Below, piece by piece: positions 8,615-23,481 of a stretch of DNA of 23,481 nt (within the stretch, counting starts at the first letter, position 1; each line of letters starts with the position of its first letter). This DNA comes from a virus: positions 1-23,481 of the IMG/VR virus record IMGVR_UViG_3300029953_000159. One strand, 5' to 3'. The translations under genes and the position numbers were made by a program. Below the pieces are notes generated by a model. The model did no database searches and was not told the origin of the DNA. It was given only the letters and a program-made list of their open reading frames with translations.

Positions 8615-9065
8615 TTTTATTGCAAAGATTGCACCAGCCGCGCAGGCATCATTTGCGTCGACCGGCGTATTTCCATCCGTGACTATCGCGCAAGCGATAT
8701 TTGAATCTGGCTGGGGTTCATCCGAATTGACTGTCAAGGCCAATAACCTATTCGGTATCAAGGCGGATTCATCCTGGACACGCGCCACACTTTCGCTGCC
8801 AACAAAAGAATTTGTCAACGGTGTCGAGGTGACAGTGCCGGCCAACTGGCGCGCATATCTGGACTGGGAAGCGTCAATTGTTGACCATGGCAATTTTTTG
8901 CATGACAATGATCGGTATTCGGGATTGTGGGCAATGACCACACCGCAGGAATTTTGCCAAGGTTTGCAAGATGCGGGTTACTCTACCAATCCAAATTATG
9001 CGCAAATGCTGATCAATGAAATGGCGGCGCGCAATTTAACACAATATGACACGGTGACGTCATGA
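8601..9065 (+). CDS. Endolysin, glucosaminidase (FlgJ/LytG-type)
   Basis: A 154-residue peptidoglycan hydrolase of the glucosaminidase family (PF01832-type). The motif Q-A-I-F-E-S-G-W-G-S-S holds the expected catalytic Glu at position 35. N-N-L-F-G-I-K (48-54) and W-R-A-Y-x-x-W-x-x-S-I-x-D-H-x-x-F-L (83-100) are the other conserved blocks. There is no signal peptide, so export through the upstream holin is expected. It should cut the glycan strand to free progeny. It overlaps the holin gene by 14 bases and the next gene as ATGA. Confidence 0.88.
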   Translation: MAPNDFIAKIAPAAQASFASTGVFPSVTIAQAIFESGWGSSELTVKANNLFGIKADSSWTRATLSLPTKEFVNGVEVTVPANWRAYLDWEASIVDHGNFLHDNDRYSGLWAMTTPQEFCQGLQDAGYSTNPNYAQMLINEMAARNLTQYDTVTS

Positions 9066-13286: not shown

Positions 13287-14312
13287 TTACGCTATCGTCA
13301 TCAGACTATTTTGAATCAACAATTCATCCGTGTATCCGGCATTGATATACTGTTCATACGTACCCTGCGCGGTCGATGTCATGCGTTTGACTGGCTGGGC
13401 AATAATTGCAGCAGGCAGTGCCGGGACGCCACCGAGCGGCACGATTGCCGGACCACCGGTATGCAAGAATGCCGGATTTGGCACGACTGGCAATTGTGGA
13501 ATACCTGACGGAGCAAGTGCTGGCGCTGCCTGTTGCAACGGTTGATAACTTGCCACGGTGGCAGGCAATGCACCAAGTCCAGGAAGTGCGGCGAGTCCAG
13601 GAAGTGCGGCGAGTCCAGGTAATCCAGGAAGTCCGGCAACCGGACTGGCCGCAGCAAAGCCGCCAATTGGGACCGATGACGCACCGGCAGGCATCGCCAC
13701 GCCGCCGAAACCTGCCTCGGACACATCTGGCCCCGACACAATTTCTTCGCCGTATGCGACCCATGCAATCATGCGCGGATTGACATAAATGCCTGCGGAT
13801 TCAGCCGGTGCATTGTCTGTCAGTTCAAGATTGACCTGGACGTAATGACCACACTTGACGAAATCATCCTCGCCGACAATTTGCACCCATTGCTGCGACT
13901 GATCTTGACGAAACAGGCGGGGCGCTTGCATGCTGGTTGAAATTGATATGATCCAATGCCCAACATTGTGCGGCGTGGAGTTTGGCGCGCGGCCTTTTTT
14001 ATTCGGCATGGCGCTATCGCCATCGGTCACTTTCCACGCAAAGTCAGGGCGCTGAAATGCTCCATTTGGAAAACCGCGCTGGGCGACTGCGAGGAAGTGC
14101 TGCCCCCATGACTCTTGCGTAAAATGCGCGCAACCGGGTGTTTTGGCAATGGCTAAACCGAACGCCCATTTTTTGGTAGGCTTGCCTTTATTGGGGCCGG
14201 ATTTGACGATCAACGGATTGCCATCTTTGTCCGTCGTTTGTGGAGTGTAGACACTGCCCCAGACAATGCGACCGACTGGCGTGGTGAAAATTGCTGAATT
14301 CTTTGTGCTCAT
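13287..14312 (-). CDS. Putative ssDNA-binding protein (DUF2815-like) with LPGL repeats
   Basis: A 341-residue protein. The N-terminal ~200 residues, beginning F-T-T-P-V-G-R-I-V-W-G-S-V and containing K-K-W-A-F-G-L-A-I and N-P-R-M-I-A-W-V-A-Y-G, resemble the DUF2815/gp2.5-like OB-fold proteins that bind single-stranded DNA in phage replication operons. A linker with repeated L-P-G-L-A-A units (about 230-255) is followed by a proline- and alanine-rich stretch. The C-terminus Y-E-Q-Y-I-N-A-G-Y-T-D-E-L-L-I resembles a tail module seen in related phage proteins. It is followed by a strong terminator, suggesting high relative output. The SSB role is inferred from family resemblance and context. Confidence 0.65.
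   Translation of the reverse strand: MSTKNSAIFTTPVGRIVWGSVYTPQTTDKDGNPLIVKSGPNKGKPTKKWAFGLAIAKTPGCAHFTQESWGQHFLAVAQRGFPNGAFQRPDFAWKVTDGDSAMPNKKGRAPNSTPHNVGHWIISISTSMQAPRLFRQDQSQQWVQIVGEDDFVKCGHYVQVNLELTDNAPAESAGIYVNPRMIAWVAYGEEIVSGPDVSEAGFGGVAMPAGASSVPIGGFAAASPVAGLPGLPGLAALPGLAALPGLGALPATVASYQPLQQAAPALAPSGIPQLPVVPNPAFLHTGGPAIVPLGGVPALPAAIIAQPVKRMTSTAQGTYEQYINAGYTDELLIQNSLMTIA
13576..13619 (-). repeat. 18-bp in-frame tandem repeat in the SSB-like gene
   Basis: On the plus strand the 18-bp unit AGTCCAGGAAGTGCGGCG occurs twice in tandem (13576-13593, 13594-13611) with a partial third copy, then degenerate copies to about 13637. Being a multiple of three it encodes repeated L-P-G-L-A-A in the linker of the putative SSB. 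It is likely a slippage-prone flexible linker. Confidence 0.8.
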
Positions 14313-14315
14313 GAT

Positions 14316-14492
14316 TTATCCTTGGACATATTGCGGGTTAAGACGACGAAATTCTTTACGTGAAAGTACTGGCGTAAGGAAGTGAAACCGACCGGGTTTG
14401 CGGACAACACCGGCGATTGTTACAGATTGATATGTGTGCGGAGGCGAATACTTCCCCATGACTGCCAGCACACCTTCGATATTGACGTTCAT
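14316..14492 (-). CDS. Unknown small basic protein (58 aa)
   Basis: A 58-codon frame whose ATG overlaps the nuclease stop as ATGA; its end carries the AAGGA ribosome binding site of the following SSB gene. The protein contains a basic segment (V-V-R-K-P-G-R-F-H-F-L-T-P-V-L-S-R-K-E-F-R-R) that could bind nucleic acid. No known motif is recognised. Position between nuclease and SSB suggests a recombination accessory. Confidence 0.55.
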   Translation of the reverse strand: MNVNIEGVLAVMGKYSPPHTYQSVTIAGVVRKPGRFHFLTPVLSRKEFRRLNPQYVQG

Positions 14493-16411: not shown

Positions 16412-16440
16412 ATTTTGACGATGCCGTCAATGTTTGTCAA
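16412..16440 (-). promoter_or_regulatory. Minus-strand promoter for the nuclease/SSB operon
   Basis: On the minus strand a perfect -35 TTGACA (16440-16435) and a -10-like CAAAAT (16417-16412) are separated by 17 bases. The region lies in the 66-base gap between the small membrane protein gene and the 256-codon gene. The palindromic operator at 16415-16430 fills the spacer and overlaps the -10. Confidence 0.6.
16415..16430. promoter_or_regulatory. Palindromic operator, copy 1
   Basis: TTGACGATGCCGTCAA on the plus strand (TTGACGGCATCGTCAA on the minus strand), with 5-bp arms TTGAC/GTCAA and a 6-base centre. It shares its arms, length and centre pattern with the sites at 16872, 19330 and 22395. 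It sits between the -35 and -10 of the minus-strand promoter, as a repressor site would. Confidence 0.75.
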
Positions 16441-16823: not shown

Positions 16824-16844
16824 AATTATTTTCTCCGGTTTATG

Positions 16845-16873
16845 TTGACAACGACTGCAGATTAAAATATATT
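16845..16873 (+). promoter_or_regulatory. Plus-strand promoter for the helicase unit
   Basis: TTGACA (16845-16850) and TATATT (16868-16873) are separated by exactly 17 bases, close to the sigma-70 consensus. The expected transcription start is near 16880, about 20 bases before the helicase ATG, leaving a very short leader without a clear Shine-Dalgarno. The operator at 16872-16887 covers the -10 edge and start site. Confidence 0.7.
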
Positions 16874-16887
16874 GACGGCTCTGTCAA
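16859..16887 (-). promoter_or_regulatory. Divergent minus-strand promoter
   Basis: On the minus strand TTGACA (16887-16882) and TAATCT (16864-16859) are 17 bases apart. It is interleaved with the plus-strand promoter. Its -35 is formed by one arm of the operator at 16872-16887. The layout (operator arm as -35, TAATCT as -10, CCGGAGA as ribosome binding site) closely matches the promoter at 22395. Confidence 0.7.
16872..16887. promoter_or_regulatory. Palindromic operator, copy 2, between divergent promoters
   Basis: TTGACGGCTCTGTCAA, with arms TTGAC/GTCAA and a 6-base centre. It covers the -35 of the minus promoter and the -10/start region of the plus promoter, so one bound protein could shut off both early units at once. 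Confidence 0.78.
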
Positions 16888-16900
16888 CAATTATTTTTAT

Positions 16901-18598
16901 ATGACCCATCTCCGCAACTTCCAACAGGTTTTAAAAGACCATATCTTTATTGCGTGGCAAGATCCACACCTGCGCAAATTGATGCCGGTGCTACCAACTG
17001 GCGGCGGCAAAACCGTCGTCGTGAGTGACTGCGCCATCACGCTGAATGAACCAGGTGCATTCATAGCGCACCGTGCCGAGCTGACAGCACAAATGTCGCT
17101 CGCTATTGCCCGCAACGGCATCAGGCACCGCATCATCGGACCGGAGAAATTACAAAAAATTATCATGCAAATCCATCTGCGCGAACTGGATAATAATTAC
17201 ATTAATCCGCATAGCAAATGGGCAGTTGCTGGTGTGGATACATTGGCGAAAGTGTCGCCGAGTGATCCGATATTTACACAGTCTCGATTTTGGGCAATTG
17301 ATGAAGGTCATCACGTCCTACAAAAGAATAAGTGGGGTAAGGTCGCTGCCATGTTCCATAAGGATTGCTTTGCCCTGATGCCCACAGCAACCCCGATCCG
17401 GGCTGATGGTATGGGGTTGGGCGCCGACGCCGACGGTCTGGTGGATGAAATGATTATCGGACCCGGCATGCGTGATCTGATCAATCAGGGCTATTTGTGT
17501 GACTATCGGCTGATCTGCCCGCGCAATGACCTGGACATGAGCAAGGTGCACCACTCGGCAGACGGTGATTTTAACCAGATCGAAATGCGCGACGCGGTGA
17601 AAAACTCGCAGGTCATCGGCAATGTTGTGCGCGATTATCTGAAATTTGCCAAGGATATGTTGGGCGTGACATTTGCCGCCGACATCGAACAGGCTGGCGA
17701 TATTAGTCGACGTTTTAATGCAGCGGGCATCCGCGCCGAAGTGGTCACAGGTAACACGCCGGCAGACGTGCGCGCCAGCATCCTGCGCAGATTTGCACAG
17801 CGCGAAATTATGATGTTGGTCAACGTGGATCTGTTCGGCGAAGGGTTCGATTTACCAGCGGTTGAAGTTGTCATTATGGCGCGGCCAACTGAGTCATACA
17901 GTCTCTACGCGCAGCAGTTTGGCCGCGCATTACGCATCATGGTTGAATCGCGCTTAAATTCTACATGGCATACATTTACCGACTTTGAACGCCTGGCCCA
18001 CATTGCCGGATCGCGCAAAAGGTCTGCGCTAATTATCGATCATGTGGGCAACTGGAAGCGCCACAATCTACCTGACAAACCCCGGATTTATACACTCAAT
18101 CGACGTGAGAAACGGGCGCCCACAATTGACGAGGATATTTTACCGTTACGTAATTGTGCCGAATGCAGTCGACCATATGAAAAATCATACAAGGCTTGTC
18201 CGCATTGCGGATACGAGCACATCCCGGCGTCACGCGACAGTCCGGCAGAGGTTGACGGTGATATGAATGAGGTATCGCCACAAATGCTGGCGCAGCTACG
18301 TGGCGACATTGCGAAGCTGGATAATCCGATGGTTGTGCCGCGTGGATTTAACGATATCATTGTCCGATCTCTGCAAAATAAGCATTACGCCAAACAGCAA
18401 GCCCAATTTGATTTACGTCAAGCGATGATGTTATGGGGCGGTCATCAGACGGCACTCGGCAGACAGGTCGATGAAGCACAGCGCCGGTTTTATCATCTGT
18501 TCAACATCGATGTGTTGTCGGCGCAGGCTTTGAATGCAAAAGATGCCGAAGAACTCAAGGCTCGAATTTTATTAAAATTAAAGGAGTGTGGGCTATGA
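16901..18598 (+). CDS. SF2 DNA helicase with C-terminal zinc ribbon
   Basis: A 565-residue helicase. It has Walker A P-T-G-G-G-K-T (32-38), motif II D-E-G-H (134-137), motif III P-T-A-T-P (161-165), motif V-like G-E-G-F-D-L-P (313-319) and motif VI Q-Q-F-G-R-A-L-R (338-345). A zinc ribbon follows: C-A-E-C (419-422) and C-P-H-C (433-436). It probably unwinds or remodels DNA at phage forks or breaks. No Shine-Dalgarno precedes ATG 16901; the next in-frame ATG (residue 28) would leave almost nothing before Walker A. The last residues R-I-L-L-K-L-K-E-C-G-L lie in the 17-bp repeat and the next gene's ribosome binding site, suggesting a replaced C-terminus. Confidence 0.87.
   Translation: MTHLRNFQQVLKDHIFIAWQDPHLRKLMPVLPTGGGKTVVVSDCAITLNEPGAFIAHRAELTAQMSLAIARNGIRHRIIGPEKLQKIIMQIHLRELDNNYINPHSKWAVAGVDTLAKVSPSDPIFTQSRFWAIDEGHHVLQKNKWGKVAAMFHKDCFALMPTATPIRADGMGLGADADGLVDEMIIGPGMRDLINQGYLCDYRLICPRNDLDMSKVHHSADGDFNQIEMRDAVKNSQVIGNVVRDYLKFAKDMLGVTFAADIEQAGDISRRFNAAGIRAEVVTGNTPADVRASILRRFAQREIMMLVNVDLFGEGFDLPAVEVVIMARPTESYSLYAQQFGRALRIMVESRLNSTWHTFTDFERLAHIAGSRKRSALIIDHVGNWKRHNLPDKPRIYTLNRREKRAPTIDEDILPLRNCAECSRPYEKSYKACPHCGYEHIPASRDSPAEVDGDMNEVSPQMLAQLRGDIAKLDNPMVVPRGFNDIIVRSLQNKHYAKQQAQFDLRQAMMLWGGHQTALGRQVDEAQRRFYHLFNIDVLSAQALNAKDAEELKARILLKLKECGL
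18564..18580 (+). repeat. 17-bp direct repeat, left copy
   Basis: GAATTTTATTAAAATTA at the end of the helicase gene, identical to 19309-19325. The two copies bracket the PP-loop gene and read in the same frame (R-I-L-L-K-L). Confidence 0.9.
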
Positions 18599-19308
18599 AG
18601 CACGTTTTAGGATTATCTGGCGGGAAAGATAGCACATGTCTTGCGTTAGCAATGCGAGAACGTCACCCCGAATTAGATATTGAATATATTTGTACGCCGA
18701 CAGGCAACGAATTGCCGGAATTGTTTGAACATTTAGACAATCTTGAAATTTTGTTAGGGAAACCGATCAAACGCCTTGGCATCGGTAAAAATTTACATGA
18801 ATTGATTGATGAAATTGGAATGTTGCCAAATTTTCGCGCACGCTGGTGCACTCGGATTTTGAAAATCGAGCCGACAATTGAATACATGAGTAAGTTGCCA
18901 GCAGGATCGGTTTTGTATGTCGGATTGCGTGCTGATGAAGAAGACCGCGAAGGCATTTATGGCGAAGATGTTAAAAGCATTTTCCCGTTTAAAGAATGGG
19001 GATGGAATGAAGCAGACGTGTGGAAATTCCTAGATGATCGAAAAATAAAAATCCCGGTGCGCACCGATTGTGGCGATTGTTATCATCAGCGAATTATTGA
19101 ATGGCGTAATTACTGGCGCGATCATCCAGATCGCTTTGCCGAATCAATTGCCATCGAAGAACGCCATGGTCACACATTCAGATCGCCAGGTCGTGACACA
19201 TGGCCTGTAAAATTGATCGATCTAGGCAAAGCGTTCGAGTCTGGCCGTAAAATTCGCGGTGAAGGCAAACAAAATGAGCGCGGGTCGTGCCGAGTGTGCT
19301 CGCTATGA
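18595..19308 (+). CDS. PAPS reductase-family PP-loop protein
   Basis: A 237-residue protein. ATG 18595 overlaps the helicase stop (ATGA) and has an AAGGAG ribosome binding site. The PP-loop L-S-G-G-K-D-S (7-13) binds the ATP/PAPS phosphates. R-W-C-T-R-I-L-K-I-E-P and the later C-G-D-C-Y-H are conserved in phage members of the family, and a final C-R-V-C lies near the end. Possible roles are sulfur activation, nucleotide modification or DNA thiolation, but it is much shorter than DndC. It is more AT-rich than the helicase and sits between 17-bp direct repeats, suggesting a recently gained cassette. Confidence 0.82.
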   Translation: MKHVLGLSGGKDSTCLALAMRERHPELDIEYICTPTGNELPELFEHLDNLEILLGKPIKRLGIGKNLHELIDEIGMLPNFRARWCTRILKIEPTIEYMSKLPAGSVLYVGLRADEEDREGIYGEDVKSIFPFKEWGWNEADVWKFLDDRKIKIPVRTDCGDCYHQRIIEWRNYWRDHPDRFAESIAIEERHGHTFRSPGRDTWPVKLIDLGKAFESGRKIRGEGKQNERGSCRVCSL

Positions 19309-19325
19309 GAATTTTATTAAAATTA
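19309..19325 (+). repeat. 17-bp direct repeat, right copy
   Basis: GAATTTTATTAAAATTA, identical to 18564-18580, directly after the PP-loop gene stop and five bases before the third operator copy. Confidence 0.9.
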
Positions 19326-19329
19326 GCAG

Positions 19330-19345
19330 TTGACGGAATTGTCAA
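19330..19345. promoter_or_regulatory. Palindromic operator, copy 3
   Basis: TTGACGGAATTGTCAA, with the same TTGAC/GTCAA arms and 6-base centre as the other copies, 20 bases before the VRR-NUC ATG. Its left arm reads TTGACG and could act as a -35, with AATAAT (19354-19359) 18 bases on as a possible -10. That would place the start at or near the ATG, so promoter placement is uncertain. Confidence 0.68.
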
Positions 19346-19365
19346 TCGTAGGCAATAATGCGCTC

Positions 19366-19728
19366 ATGAATGAGAACCCCATACAACAACGTGTCCGATT
19401 ACTTGCCGCAAATTCAGGCTGGCTATTGTGGCGAAATAATGTCGGTGTTTATATCGACAAGCGCGGCATCCCGGTGCGCTACGGACTTGCCAACGATACA
19501 TCAGCGATGAATAAGCGCATCAAGTCTGCCGATTTAATTGGTATCAGGCCAGTATTGATCACACCTGACATGGTGGGTAAAATTATCGGACAATTTGTCA
19601 GCATTGAAGTAAAACGCAGCGATTGGAAACCCGGCGCAGATCCCGAACGCGAACAGGCTCAGCAACACTGGGCCGACATCGTCAACGAACAGGGCGGTTA
19701 CGCCAAATTTAGTACAGGAGAACTATGA
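19366..19728 (+). CDS. VRR-NUC domain nuclease
   Basis: A 120-residue stand-alone VRR-NUC (PF08774-type) nuclease. The start is ATG 19366; earlier in-frame non-ATG codons fall inside the operator. Motifs are Q-x-R-V-R-L-L-A (8-15), W-R-N-N-V-G (22-27), V-R-Y-G-L (37-41), K-S-A-D-L-I-G-I (53-60) and I-E-V-K-R (79-83, the E-x-K core), then E-Q-A-Q-Q-H-W and G-G-Y-A. Such phage enzymes act on branched DNA or ends. Its stop overlaps the HTH gene start as ATGA, placing nuclease and regulator in one unit under operator copy 3. Confidence 0.85.
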   Translation: MNENPIQQRVRLLAANSGWLLWRNNVGVYIDKRGIPVRYGLANDTSAMNKRIKSADLIGIRPVLITPDMVGKIIGQFVSIEVKRSDWKPGADPEREQAQQHWADIVNEQGGYAKFSTGEL

Positions 19729-20015
19729 AAACCGACACACTCATTAAATCCGACATGGTTGACAAGGCGCTCGCGCTGGCCGTCAAGATCGGATTTGCAA
19801 ACCTCACACGCGCCAATATTAGCGAGGCGTGCGGCATCACCCCGTCGCTGGTCAATCATCGATTTGGCACCATGACCGAAATGCGACGAACCATTGCCCG
19901 AGCGGCCATCCACACCGAGACGCTGCCCGTCATCGCTGAACTGGTGGCAACAAAAAGCCCGTTAGTTAAAAAGATATCCGACTCGCTCAAAGCGCGCGCC
20001 ATCGCGCAATTATAA
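19725..20015 (+). CDS. Small TetR-type HTH DNA-binding protein
   Basis: A 96-residue protein with an AGGAG ribosome binding site and ATGA overlap with the nuclease gene. Residues 12-55 follow the TetR N-terminal helix-turn-helix pattern: A-L-x-L-A-x-x-I-G-F-A-N-L-T, then I-S-E-A-C-G-I-T-P-S-L-V-N-H-R-F-G-T-M-T-E-M. There is room for little more than a short helical C-terminus, far less than the ligand/dimer domain of full TetR proteins (~200 residues). It is the only clear HTH protein in the window and the natural candidate to bind the four palindromic operators; that link is inference. Confidence 0.75.
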   Translation: MKTDTLIKSDMVDKALALAVKIGFANLTRANISEACGITPSLVNHRFGTMTEMRRTIARAAIHTETLPVIAELVATKSPLVKKISDSLKARAIAQL

Positions 20016-20016
20016 A

Positions 20017-22398
20017 ATGCATAACTTAGTTACGGCGTTAGGCGCTTCGGGCGCACTGCGCGGCTTTGCCTACTTTAAACAGTTTATCGTCTGCCAATAT
20101 GTGCCAGATGAAAAACGACCTGGCAAAACGCATAAATTTCCTATTCATCCGACGCACGGGTATCGTACCGACGCGCACGATCCGGCGATATGGATTACTG
20201 CCGATGAAGCGATCAATATCGCCACACTGTTTGGCCCAGGTTACGGCGTAGGATTTGTATTTACCGAGCAAGATCCGTTTTGGTTTATCGACGTGGACGA
20301 ATGCATTACTGCCGAGGGATATGGCCCAATTGTCAGTGAGCTGGCTGCGTTATTTCCCGGCTGCGCTGTGGAAATTAGCCAGTCTGGTCGAGGGTTGCAT
20401 TTTTTTGGTATGGGGCGCGCGACGGATGATCGGCGTGTAAAAGATAAAACCAACAAATTGTTTGATCTGTTCACCAAATTGCGTTTTGTGGCGCTCACTG
20501 GCGTCGGCGCCGTCGGTGCGGTCGATGCCCACAATTACAGTGACAATCTTGCCGAGCTGGTCAAGCGTCATCTGATGCGCGATCCAAACGAAACCGACAG
20601 CGGGTGGACGACGGAACCCTGCGATGAATGGCATGGCCCGGACGACGACTCTGCGCTCATTCAACGGGCATTGCGGTCACAATCCGCATCGGCAGCATTT
20701 GGCAATAAGGCAAGTTTTGCCGATTTGTGGAATGCCGACATTGTGGCGCTCGGCAAATGTTTCCCGCATCCGACTGAACCCTACGGATACAGTGAGGCCG
20801 ACAGCGCGCTCGCCATGCACCTATCATTTTGGACCGGTAAAAATTGCGAGCGCATCCAGCGCATCATGATGCAGTCGCAACTCTACCGGCAGAAATGGGA
20901 ACGTGAGGATTATCTACCGCGCACCATCAGGGCAGTCGTTCGCCTGTCGCATGACGTACTGACCGACAAACATCCCGAACCGGCACAAGCGGTCGAGTCA
21001 GGCGACATTGAAAACCCCGTGCCAAAGATGGTCGAGGGAAATGTCTATCTGGGCGCACAGGAGCAGATCAACACATTCAAGGGGTGCATCTATGTCCAGG
21101 ACATGCACCGTATCATGGTCCCGTCTGGCAACCTGCTAAAGCCGGATCAATTTCGCGTTGCATATGGTGGGTTTATGTTTCAGATGGATGTGGAGAATCG
21201 CCGATCGAGCCGCGATGCGTTCGAAGCGTTCACACAGTCGCAGCTCTACCGTGCGCCGAAGGTTGACACGTCCACTTTTAGGCCAGATTTAAAATCAGGC
21301 ATGATCATCAACACGGGCGGCATGACGCGGGTCAATTCTTATGTGCCGATCAACATGCCGCGTCGGGTCGGTGATCCCGCACCATTTTTAAATCATTTGC
21401 GCAAGCTGTTGCCTGTTGAACGCGATGCCTTAATTTTACTGTCCTACATGTCTGCCGTCGTTCAATACAAGGGCGTTAAATTCCAATGGTGCCCATTCAT
21501 CCAGGGCGTTGAAGGTAACGGCAAATCACTATTTAGTCGTTGCGTAGATTACGCGGTGGGCGATAAATATTCACATTGGCCGAAAGCCGACCAGATTCAT
21601 AAAAATTTCAACATGTGGCAATTGAATAAGATCTTTATCGCTGTGGAAGATATTTGCATCAGTGAGTCAAATAAATCCGTGTGGGAATTGTTGAAACCGA
21701 TGATCACCGGGGAAAAGCAATCAATTGAGCCGAAAGGTGTGGATGCGGCAACCAGGTACGTATGCTGCAATTACATCCTGAACGGCAACAGTAAAAACGG
21801 TATCCCTAAAACACAAAATGACCGAAGGGCGGCGCCGCTATTTACCGCACAGCAGTCAAAACCGGATCTGGTGCGCGACCACATTACTGCTGACTACGTG
21901 ACGGGTTTATATAACTGGCTCAAAAATGAAGATGGTTACGCCATCGTGTCGGAATTACTGCACACGTTCCCCATACCGCCAGAATTTAATCCTGCCGGCG
22001 CATGCCAGGTGGCACCAATCACCAGCAGCACTGACGAAGCCATCAGCGAGTCGCAAGGGTTGATCGACCAGGAAATATTAGAAGCCATCGCACAAGGTCA
22101 GGAAGGTTTCTGCGGCGGGTTTATTTCATCGATTGCGCTGGATCGGCTGATCGACCGTCGCCACACCAACAACAAAATTGCACTCAACCAGCGTCGCACC
22201 ATCCTGCAGCGACTTGGTTATGACTGGCATCCCGCGTTACATCAGGGGCGTGTCAATAATATCGTGCTGCCGGATAACGGCAAACCACGACTTTACATCA
22301 CAAAATTCTCCCCGCATTACGGTCTATCCAACGCCGCCGATGTTGCGCGTGCGTACACGGATTCACAAATATCTAGCCTGTTACAATTTAATTGTTGA
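20017..22398 (+). CDS. Primase-helicase (AEP primase plus D5-type SF3 helicase)
   Basis: A 793-residue fusion. The N-terminus shows archaeo-eukaryotic primase/PrimPol motifs: F-I-D-V-D-E (90-95, metal-binding Asp pair), S-Q-S-G-R-G-L-H-F-F-G (121-131, with His128) and V-A-L-T-G (158-162). The C-terminal helicase has Walker A G-V-E-G-N-G-K-S (497-504), Walker B K-I-F-I-A-V-E-D (538-545) and a motif C-like N-Y-I-L-N-G-N-S (585-592) followed by N-D-R-R. It should prime and open the phage fork for the family B polymerase. ATG 20017 follows the HTH stop by one base. The stop codon lies inside operator copy 4. Confidence 0.85.
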   Translation: MHNLVTALGASGALRGFAYFKQFIVCQYVPDEKRPGKTHKFPIHPTHGYRTDAHDPAIWITADEAINIATLFGPGYGVGFVFTEQDPFWFIDVDECITAEGYGPIVSELAALFPGCAVEISQSGRGLHFFGMGRATDDRRVKDKTNKLFDLFTKLRFVALTGVGAVGAVDAHNYSDNLAELVKRHLMRDPNETDSGWTTEPCDEWHGPDDDSALIQRALRSQSASAAFGNKASFADLWNADIVALGKCFPHPTEPYGYSEADSALAMHLSFWTGKNCERIQRIMMQSQLYRQKWEREDYLPRTIRAVVRLSHDVLTDKHPEPAQAVESGDIENPVPKMVEGNVYLGAQEQINTFKGCIYVQDMHRIMVPSGNLLKPDQFRVAYGGFMFQMDVENRRSSRDAFEAFTQSQLYRAPKVDTSTFRPDLKSGMIINTGGMTRVNSYVPINMPRRVGDPAPFLNHLRKLLPVERDALILLSYMSAVVQYKGVKFQWCPFIQGVEGNGKSLFSRCVDYAVGDKYSHWPKADQIHKNFNMWQLNKIFIAVEDICISESNKSVWELLKPMITGEKQSIEPKGVDAATRYVCCNYILNGNSKNGIPKTQNDRRAAPLFTAQQSKPDLVRDHITADYVTGLYNWLKNEDGYAIVSELLHTFPIPPEFNPAGACQVAPITSSTDEAISESQGLIDQEILEAIAQGQEGFCGGFISSIALDRLIDRRHTNNKIALNQRRTILQRLGYDWHPALHQGRVNNIVLPDNGKPRLYITKFSPHYGLSNAADVARAYTDSQISSLLQFNC

Positions 22399-22410
22399 CG
22401 GCTCCGTCAA
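22395..22410. promoter_or_regulatory. Palindromic operator, copy 4
   Basis: TTGACGGCTCCGTCAA, the most symmetrical copy; with the flanking G and C it is an 18-base palindrome with 8-bp arms GTTGACGG/CCGTCAAC (22394-22411). It overlaps the primase stop codon and the -35 of the next promoter. Confidence 0.8.
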
Positions 22411-22423
22411 CTTTATTTAATCT
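22395..22423 (+). promoter_or_regulatory. Promoter of the distal AT-rich genes
   Basis: TTGACG (22395-22400) and TAATCT (22418-22423) are 17 bases apart. The expected start is near 22430, and CCGGAGA (22444-22450) precedes ATG 22458. Spacing and elements mirror the minus-strand promoter at 16887-16859. Confidence 0.65.
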
Positions 22424-22445
22424 ACGTGCATCAACTAAACAAACC

Positions 22446-22458
22446 GGAGATTAAATAA
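22446..22458 (+). repeat. Repeated Shine-Dalgarno leader, copy 1
   Basis: GGAGATTAAATAA before the ATG of the 114-codon gene. The identical 13 bases recur at 22807-22819 before the next gene, so both genes have the same translation start context. Confidence 0.75.
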
Positions 22459-22802
22459 TGAAAATTACAGTAACTTGCTCACGCTGCCGAGGTTCTGGAA
22501 ATTACAGTTTTAATTTACTCAAAGGAACAGTTTGTTTCGGATGTGGCGGAAGCGGTTATAAATTGGTTGATGAAGCAAAGCATGAAGCCGCAATTGTTAG
22601 AAAACAAAAGGCTGATACATTGTCTAAATTGACACGCGAACGCCGCGCAATTATTGCAGCGCAAGTGAAAGCCGAATTAGAAAAAGAATTTGGATTTTTG
22701 GCCGACACCGATCTGGCAATGTTTAATTTAGTTTCAGAATGCCAACGAGTACACAAATGTACACCCGGCGATATCGTTCAACAGCGCCTCGCAGCCAAAT
22801 AA
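22458..22802 (+). CDS. DnaJ-zinc-finger-like small protein
   Basis: A 114-residue protein. Two C-x-x-C-x-G-x-G motifs, C-S-R-C-R-G-S-G (7-14) and C-F-G-C-G-G-S-G (26-33), are the DnaJ zinc-finger repeat; two copies can hold one zinc ion. A charged, helical segment follows (about 40-80, E-A-K-H-E-A-A-I-V-R-K-Q-K and K-A-E-L-E-K-E-F). There is no J domain. The gene is AT-rich compared with the primase and follows its own operator-bearing promoter. It may act as an RNA- or protein-binding adaptor; the function is unknown. Confidence 0.65.
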   Translation: MKITVTCSRCRGSGNYSFNLLKGTVCFGCGGSGYKLVDEAKHEAAIVRKQKADTLSKLTRERRAIIAAQVKAELEKEFGFLADTDLAMFNLVSECQRVHKCTPGDIVQQRLAAK

Positions 22803-22806
22803 CCCA

Positions 22807-22819
22807 GGAGATTAAATAA
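22807..22819 (+). repeat. Repeated Shine-Dalgarno leader, copy 2
   Basis: GGAGATTAAATAA, identical to 22446-22458, two bases before the next gene start. Confidence 0.75.
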
Positions 22820-22820
22820 A

Positions 22821-23481
22821 ATGACACAATCTAAAACAAGCCTAGTCCTGTGCACATGCCGCGCTGATATGACATCTAAAAATGGTTTTAAATGGCCTGC
22901 GGTCGGCGAGGTCGCAACTGCGCCTGATTGGAAACCTACACCTGAATGCGGAAATGGCCCGCATGGTTGGCTATATGGTCAAGGTGATTACTCATGTGGT
23001 GAGTATCTGGATGAAACAGCGAAATGGCTTGTCGTCGAAGTTATTACCAAAAATATTGTGATGATCGGCGGAAAATGCAAATTTGAACGCGGAGTTGTTC
23101 GATTTATCGGTGATAAAAAATCAGCAACTGACTTCCTGATCGCTAATGAGCCGCAATCTGCGAGAGTTGCTGTAATTGGCGCAACTGTAATTGTCGGAGA
23201 TACAGAAAACGCATTGACTGGCTATAAAGGCACAGCCACAGCGGGCGCGTACGGCACAGCCACAGCGGGCTATAAAGGCACAGCCACAGCGGGCTATAAA
23301 GGCACAGCCACAGCGGGCTATAAAGGCACAGCCACAGCGGGCGATATCGGCACAGCCACAGCGGGCGCGTACGGCACAGCCACAGCGGGCGCGTACGGCA
23401 CAGCCACAGCGGGCGCGTACGGCACAGCCACAGCGGGCGCGTACGGCACAATTTGCATTCAAGATTGGGATTCAAAAAATG
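22821..23481 (+). CDS. Phage protein with 8-residue GTATAGxx tandem repeats (3' partial)
   Basis: Starts at ATG 22821 after a GGAG leader and runs open to the window end. The N-terminal ~130 residues contain L-C-T-C-R-A-D-M-T-S, G-F-K-W-P-A-V-G-E-V, E-C-G-N-G-P-H-G-W-L-Y-G-Q-G-D and W-L-V-V-E-V. This is a pattern I associate with a phage protein family that also carries such repeats. Nine full units of G-x-x-G-T-A-T-A (23220-23435) and one partial follow, then I-C-I-Q-D-W-D. The repeats may form a beta-helical or collagen-like stalk. The function is unknown; sequence past the window is needed for its end. Confidence 0.7.
   Translation, partial: MTQSKTSLVLCTCRADMTSKNGFKWPAVGEVATAPDWKPTPECGNGPHGWLYGQGDYSCGEYLDETAKWLVVEVITKNIVMIGGKCKFERGVVRFIGDKKSATDFLIANEPQSARVAVIGATVIVGDTENALTGYKGTATAGAYGTATAGYKGTATAGYKGTATAGYKGTATAGDIGTATAGAYGTATAGAYGTATAGAYGTATAGAYGTICIQDWDSKN
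23220..23450 (+). repeat. 24-bp coding tandem repeat, about 9.6 copies
   Basis: Unit GGC-xxx-xxx-GGC-ACA-GCC-ACA-GCG. The 18 fixed bases are identical in every complete copy; only the two x codons vary (TAT-AAA, GCG-TAC, GAT-ATC), giving Y-K, A-Y or D-I. The order is YK, AY, YK, YK, YK, DI, AY, AY, AY, AY. The tenth copy stops after GGC-ACA. Confidence 0.95.

Follow-up and report, generated by a model that had tools for sequence, protein, structure and literature searches.

An SspD-like gene bracketed by a 17-bp direct repeat and its probable insertion between a helicase gene and a putative promoter-operator in a phage

We analysed a stretch of viral DNA 23,481 nucleotides long (the window; positions 1 to 23,481 of IMG/VR record IMGVR_UViG_3300029953_000159), whose structure is known from one metagenome contig and for which a phage megablast gave no match. 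An SF2 helicase gene (16901-18598, + strand; Pfam Helicase_C and ResIII; phrog_16, E 1.7e-69), now ending in K-E-C-G-L, runs into an intact PP-loop gene of 237 codons (18595-19308, +), ATGA at 18595-18598 being common to the stop of the one and the start of the other; from this overlap, translation of the second gene is probably tied to that of the helicase. The 17-mer GAATTTTATTAAAATTA occurs exactly at 18564-18580 and 19309-19325 (both +), the copies lying 745 bp apart, with no third site in the window at 0 mismatches. Copy 1 lies within the coding end of the helicase, and copy 2, which is AT-rich, directly abuts the stop codon of the PP-loop gene and stands immediately 5′ of a putative promoter-operator. 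As the first-pass annotation had noted, both read R-I-L-L-K-L in the helicase frame; copy 1 has CGA where copy 2 has AGA. Between the copies are only the PP-loop gene and a 14-nt leader (18581-18594, +), which encodes the new helicase tail and carries, as also noted, a ribosome binding site of the cassette's own, AAGGAG at 18581-18586, ahead of the ATG at 18595.

The PP-loop protein was assigned to PAPS reductase-like families by Pfam and PHROGs (PF01507, E 3.5e-9; phrog_424, E 3e-36). The PADLOC model of SspD was a far better match (E 2.5e-51), and the protein is 40–41% identical to SspD encoded in plasmid SspABCD operons. On the plasmids the homologue comes after a DUF4007 gene and a large one; PADLOC called these two SspB and SspC in the one operon scanned, and in two of the three cases a cysteine desulfurase gene stands in front. 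Common to the phage protein and the three plasmid SspD proteins are five invariant cysteines; the PP-loop SGG[KR]DS, a C-T-R motif and two CxxC pairs are likewise shared with plasmid SspD. A structure model of middling confidence (pLDDT 76.8) came nearest in fold to the PAPS reductases 1sur and 6vpu. Identity as a CysH PAPS reductase was rejected, however, as the protein ends in GSCRVCSL and lacks ECGLH, the C-terminal catalytic motif of that enzyme. The PP-loop profile had a weak match in PptA (PDB 21fy), on which a literature search found no paper. By its sequence, the inserted gene thus encodes an orphan SspD-family protein (DNA phosphorothioation).

According to PMC7188994, SspD is an ATP pyrophosphatase and binds SspA, the sulfur donor. 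The SspD proteins of SspABCD phosphorothioation systems (PMC7188994, PMC8092258) have the PP-loop and cysteine motifs in common with the phage protein, which is about 40 residues shorter. Unlike in those systems, SspB and SspC were found neither in the window nor in 12 viral contigs with the PP-loop gene or Dunaliella virus SI2, records that may be fragments; a complete SspABCD system was accordingly rejected for the window and the viral records searched. The phage protein may mark or protect phage DNA together with host partners, and phage-borne SspD-like proteins, unaccompanied by the other components of the system, may be relevant to the marking of DNA or to evasion of defence.

In 2 of 200 dinucleotide shuffles, an exact direct repeat of at least 17 bp arose within 1.5 kb, so that a repeat of this length is by itself only moderately unusual; what matters about it is its position. 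Chance does not explain it, because a relative has a single 18-bp stretch to which both copies align, exactly where the gene is missing. This phage is represented by three near-identical IMG/VR contigs (L017-L019, G001-G003), which are at least 99.8% identical to one another over the main alignments and are therefore treated as one phage. It shares 80–84% nucleotide identity with the window over most of the replication region, and its helicase is 95% identical in amino acids. In the relative, the sequences that match 16898-18580 and 19308-22458 of the window adjoin, overlapping by 18 bp, at a site that holds a single copy of the 17-mer, to which copy 1 aligns, and which is contiguous with the operator as copy 2 is in the window. 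The 14-nt leader is absent from the relative, nor did its three contigs yield a PP-loop gene at any other place. A complete gene present in the window is thus missing at the corresponding position of a close relative, as in cargo-gene insertion; this close-range comparison involves one filled genome and one empty-site phage.

The two sides of the site also preserve an older helicase end. Removal by script of one 17-mer copy and the gene from the window joined the helicase to RILLKLAVDGIVNRRQ and a stop. The relative's helicase ends in RILLKLSVDGIVNNRRQ and a stop (SVDGIVNNRRQ), nearly the A-V-D-G-I-V-N-R-R-Q predicted from the window alone, and not in KECGL. In the window this tail persists as a relic at 19326-19358 (+), whose frame is still open up to its stop. 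The bracket could instead be an assembly artefact in which two molecules were joined at the 17-bp repeat of the only metagenome contig available; yet the junction yields an intact gene with ribosome binding site, ATGA overlap and stop codon, and usual assembly k-mers are longer than 17 bp, which makes an artefact extremely improbable. The locus offers a before-and-after picture of phage gene gain, in which the filled site, the empty site and the relic of a lost protein end are all readable.

To assign a direction to the change we retrieved about 80 further loci with related helicases, most at 44–50% identity. Many of these distant helicases carry a terminal [IV]DG[TI]V with N-A-A-x-Y-F after it. 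KECGL terminates none of them, and they are usually unaccompanied by the PP-loop gene, which most of the loci lack at this place. The gene is hence not a constant companion of the helicase, and the tail proposed as the original helicase end is borne out beyond the close relative. Because distant helicases often end in [IV]DG[TI]V, the relative's tail appears ancestral and the window's derived, and gain in the window lineage is the simplest reading. Were the gene ancestral, recombination between the two 17-bp repeats in the relative would have deleted it and produced exactly the relative's sequence. We consider such a loss very unlikely: the [IV]DG[TI]V tail is common to the relative and to many distant helicases, most without the gene here, the window retains the old tail as a relic, and the coding copy of the repeat would have had to remain identical to the non-coding copy over time.

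The locus had also been described as a recently gained module. The empty site and the helicase tails agree with the gain. Of codons for the same residue in the two helicases, 39% differ between window and relative; the unchanged copy 1 of the 17-mer is nevertheless weak evidence of recency, because 44 of 556 five-codon stretches of the helicase are unchanged too. That the insertion was recent is thus a weakly, at most modestly, supported suggestion. The contrast in base composition estimated by hand (32–45% GC against 58–62%) was smaller in whole-gene counts, which gave 44.5% GC for the PP-loop gene (GC3 40.3%) and 50.9% for the helicase (GC3 54.9%). The 30 genes of the window average 48.4% GC (sd 3.9) and 50.5% GC3 (sd 7.1), placing the PP-loop gene about 1.0–1.5 sd below the mean, and in codon usage it resembles the rest of them. 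Foreign composition was rejected as proof of gain, being too weak.

The DNA of the old helicase end seems to have a second function, which had not been foreseen when the tail was proposed. The codons of V-D-G-I-V-N spell the palindrome TTGACGGAATTGTCAA (19330-19345, +), whose left arm forms the −35 element of a promoter-like pair at 19330-19359 (TTGACG and AATAAT, 18-bp spacer, match 10/12). Downstream lie an endonuclease-like gene (19366-19728, +; phrog_93, E 7.6e-10; 86% identical in amino acids in the relative), a gene for a 96-residue TetR_N helix-turn-helix protein (19725-20015, +; PF00440, E 5e-6; phrog_8723) and a primase gene (20017-22398, +; phrog_1829, E 3.5e-121). Similar palindromes, with no strand assigned, are found at 16415-16430 (TTGACGATGCCGTCAA), at 16872-16887 (TTGACGGCTCTGTCAA), starting at the −10 element of a promoter-like pair that precedes the helicase (TTGACA-17-TATATT, match 11/12), and at the primase stop, 22395-22410 (TTGACGGCTCCGTCAA). 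The exact pattern TTGAC-N6-GTCAA thus occurs four times in the window and at the same four places in the relative, against 0.03–0.05 expected, and other arm spacings gave at most one site each in either phage. Among 65 dereplicated relatives we counted 49 such palindromes, compared with at most 6 for any arm of the same composition and at most 4 TTGAC/GTCAA sites at any spacing other than 6. A −10-like hexamer (at least 4/6) lies 16–18 bp from the first hexamer in 34 of the 49, compared with 11% of random places.

The best reading is that the palindrome at 19330 is the putative operator of a regulated promoter that overlaps the helicase end. Since the original end seems to double as promoter-operator, the 17-bp repeat is most likely the AT-rich stretch before the promoter. 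The TetR_N gene, which belongs to the same operon and whose place between endonuclease and primase is conserved in the phage family, is by position a candidate regulator of the palindromes. Could the palindromes be intrinsic terminators, and the repeat incidental AT-rich sequence? In a pattern scan two of the four have terminator-like scores, and three are situated at gene ends or close to them; the scan, however, gave 6 terminator-like matches where shuffles predict 8.1, the palindrome at 16872 starts at the −10 element of a promoter-like pair ahead of the helicase gene, and the −10 spacing across the family fits a −35 box. We regard terminators as unlikely and retain the operator reading.

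When viral contigs were scanned for exact matches to the operator plus the stretch before it, and to the operator of the helicase, only the three contigs of the known relative matched. The motif TTGAC-N6-GTCAA, with consensus TTGACGGAACCGTCAA, recurs across the phage family (L035-L114), often within the helicase coding end, where it matches the C-terminal peptide IDGTVNAAxYF. The comparison brings to light a putative promoter-operator motif encoded in the end of the helicase gene in many related phages. We also observed that 16832-16893 (−) and 22389-22450 (+) are similar over about 62 bp (71%), a repeated promoter-operator-leader unit that includes TAATCT and the ribosome binding site CCGGAGA.

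Taken together, these observations make it very probable that the lineage of this phage gained a one-gene cassette between the helicase gene and the promoter-operator overlapping its 3′ end, and that the old helicase end was left as a relic. In the course of events that we propose, the 14-nt leader and the 237-codon SspD-like gene would have entered at this point, after which the 17-bp AT-rich stretch would have stood on both sides of the cassette. Copy 1 would still encode the R-I-L-L-K-L of the helicase, whose reading frame would then close at a new stop sharing ATGA with the start of the inserted gene, and copy 2 would leave intact the promoter that serves the endonuclease, TetR-like and primase genes, perhaps through selection for keeping the AT-rich stretch; the old tail would remain as an untranslated relic. 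The insertion would illustrate how a gene can enter beside a promoter without breaking it. The duplication is most likely a product of short-homology joining or of strand annealing during DNA replication; among the genes of the phage are those for an exonuclease (phrog_69) and a Gp2.5-like annealing protein (phrog_7011).

A single-copy empty site and exact flanking copies would also fit a one-crossover integration, in which a circle with one copy of the repeat as its site-specific core recombined into the resident copy, in the manner of att sites or integron cassettes. This we hold to be highly improbable: no recombinase is among the window genes scanned, the 17-mer is confined to this site in the window, and the flanks of 83 other PP-loop loci contain no long repeat. 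With two copies in the window, the 17-mer was rejected both as a genome-wide repeat and as an att site. A donor molecule with the same flanks was not found in 14 + 80 viral PP-loop loci; the nearest viral PP-loop genes are 62–65% identical, and none has a flanking repeat above 9 bp.

In related phages homologous PP-loop genes sit at different positions within this replication region: ahead of the helicase in L183, between the endonuclease and TetR genes in L053 and L063, between those for endonuclease and primase in L190, and after the primase in L112. As the positions differ, the gene is a roaming cargo gene of this region. Flanking repeats at these other loci are 9 bp at most, and in L063 the PP-loop gene likewise ends just before a TTGAC-N6-GTCAA-type palindrome. 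SspD-like proteins are common in environmental phages (L003-L016, L118-L197), often near exonuclease, polymerase or primase genes. A search for the host through related helicases in bacterial genomes found scattered MAGs and no clear host.

Two further insertions distinguish the window from the relative. A gene for a 114-residue, CxxCxGxG zinc-finger-like protein (22458-22802, +), absent from the relative and with the lowest GC3 in the window (31%), is flanked by two copies of the 13-bp RBS-leader repeat GGAGATTAAATAA (22446-22458 and 22807-22819, +). Its homologues were not found in viral contigs, and the phage collection contained one weak relative only. The third insertion is a short ORF of about 55 residues at an ATGA junction (14309-14488, −), with the 8-bp repeat TCATGATT. 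Conversely, the relative (reverse complement of G002) has two short ORFs absent from the window, near 8681-8859 and 14044-14163, both at start codons with 5–7-bp repeats. A 24-bp tandem repeat occurs at 23172-23475 of the window and at 10200-10550 of L018; in the relative it encodes a periodic GTATAGYS-type stretch that varies between its contigs.

Gene-size indels in 65 pairwise comparisons within the helicase family mostly have 2–5 bp at the junction, often ATGA, and the 17 and 13 bp of the window stand out, bar one 19-bp repeat in L045 (two comparisons). It is conceivable, if rather doubtful, that new genes dock preferentially at the promoter-operator units of this phage family. Just as tentative is the corollary that in doing so they duplicate the border of such a unit (the 17 bp at 19309, the 13-bp RBS leader at 22446). 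If docking is true, resident promoter and newcomer would both stay functional, and repeated regulatory sites would steer gene gain.

Short repeated regulatory sequences at gene starts are known from the SAS/ESAS of cluster K mycobacteriophages, a likeness to the window phage, and their authors name these repeats as possible recombination targets (PMC3203893). SAS/ESAS form a genome-wide repeat family, whereas the 17-mer is a local duplication and only the palindromes recur; with just two copies in the window, the 17-mer was rejected as a repeat family of that type. The mobile regulatory cassettes of T4-type phages called PeSL are the subject of work attributed to Arbiol (2010) and Comeau (2014), both cited in PMC4503421. 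These cassettes reportedly contain promoters and lie at borders of gene shuffling, a likeness to the window phage; no stem-loop early promoter was shown in the latter. In the moron or cargo insertion of tailed phages, whose mosaic genomes are tied to illegitimate recombination, one complete gene likewise lies between conserved neighbours and is absent from a close relative. A strict moron is not claimed, because the gene overlaps the helicase stop (ATGA) and has only its own ribosome binding site; a scan of the 14-nt leader gave no promoter-like match. Unlike the gene-size indels usual in this helicase family, the insertion in the window is bounded by an exact 17-bp repeat.
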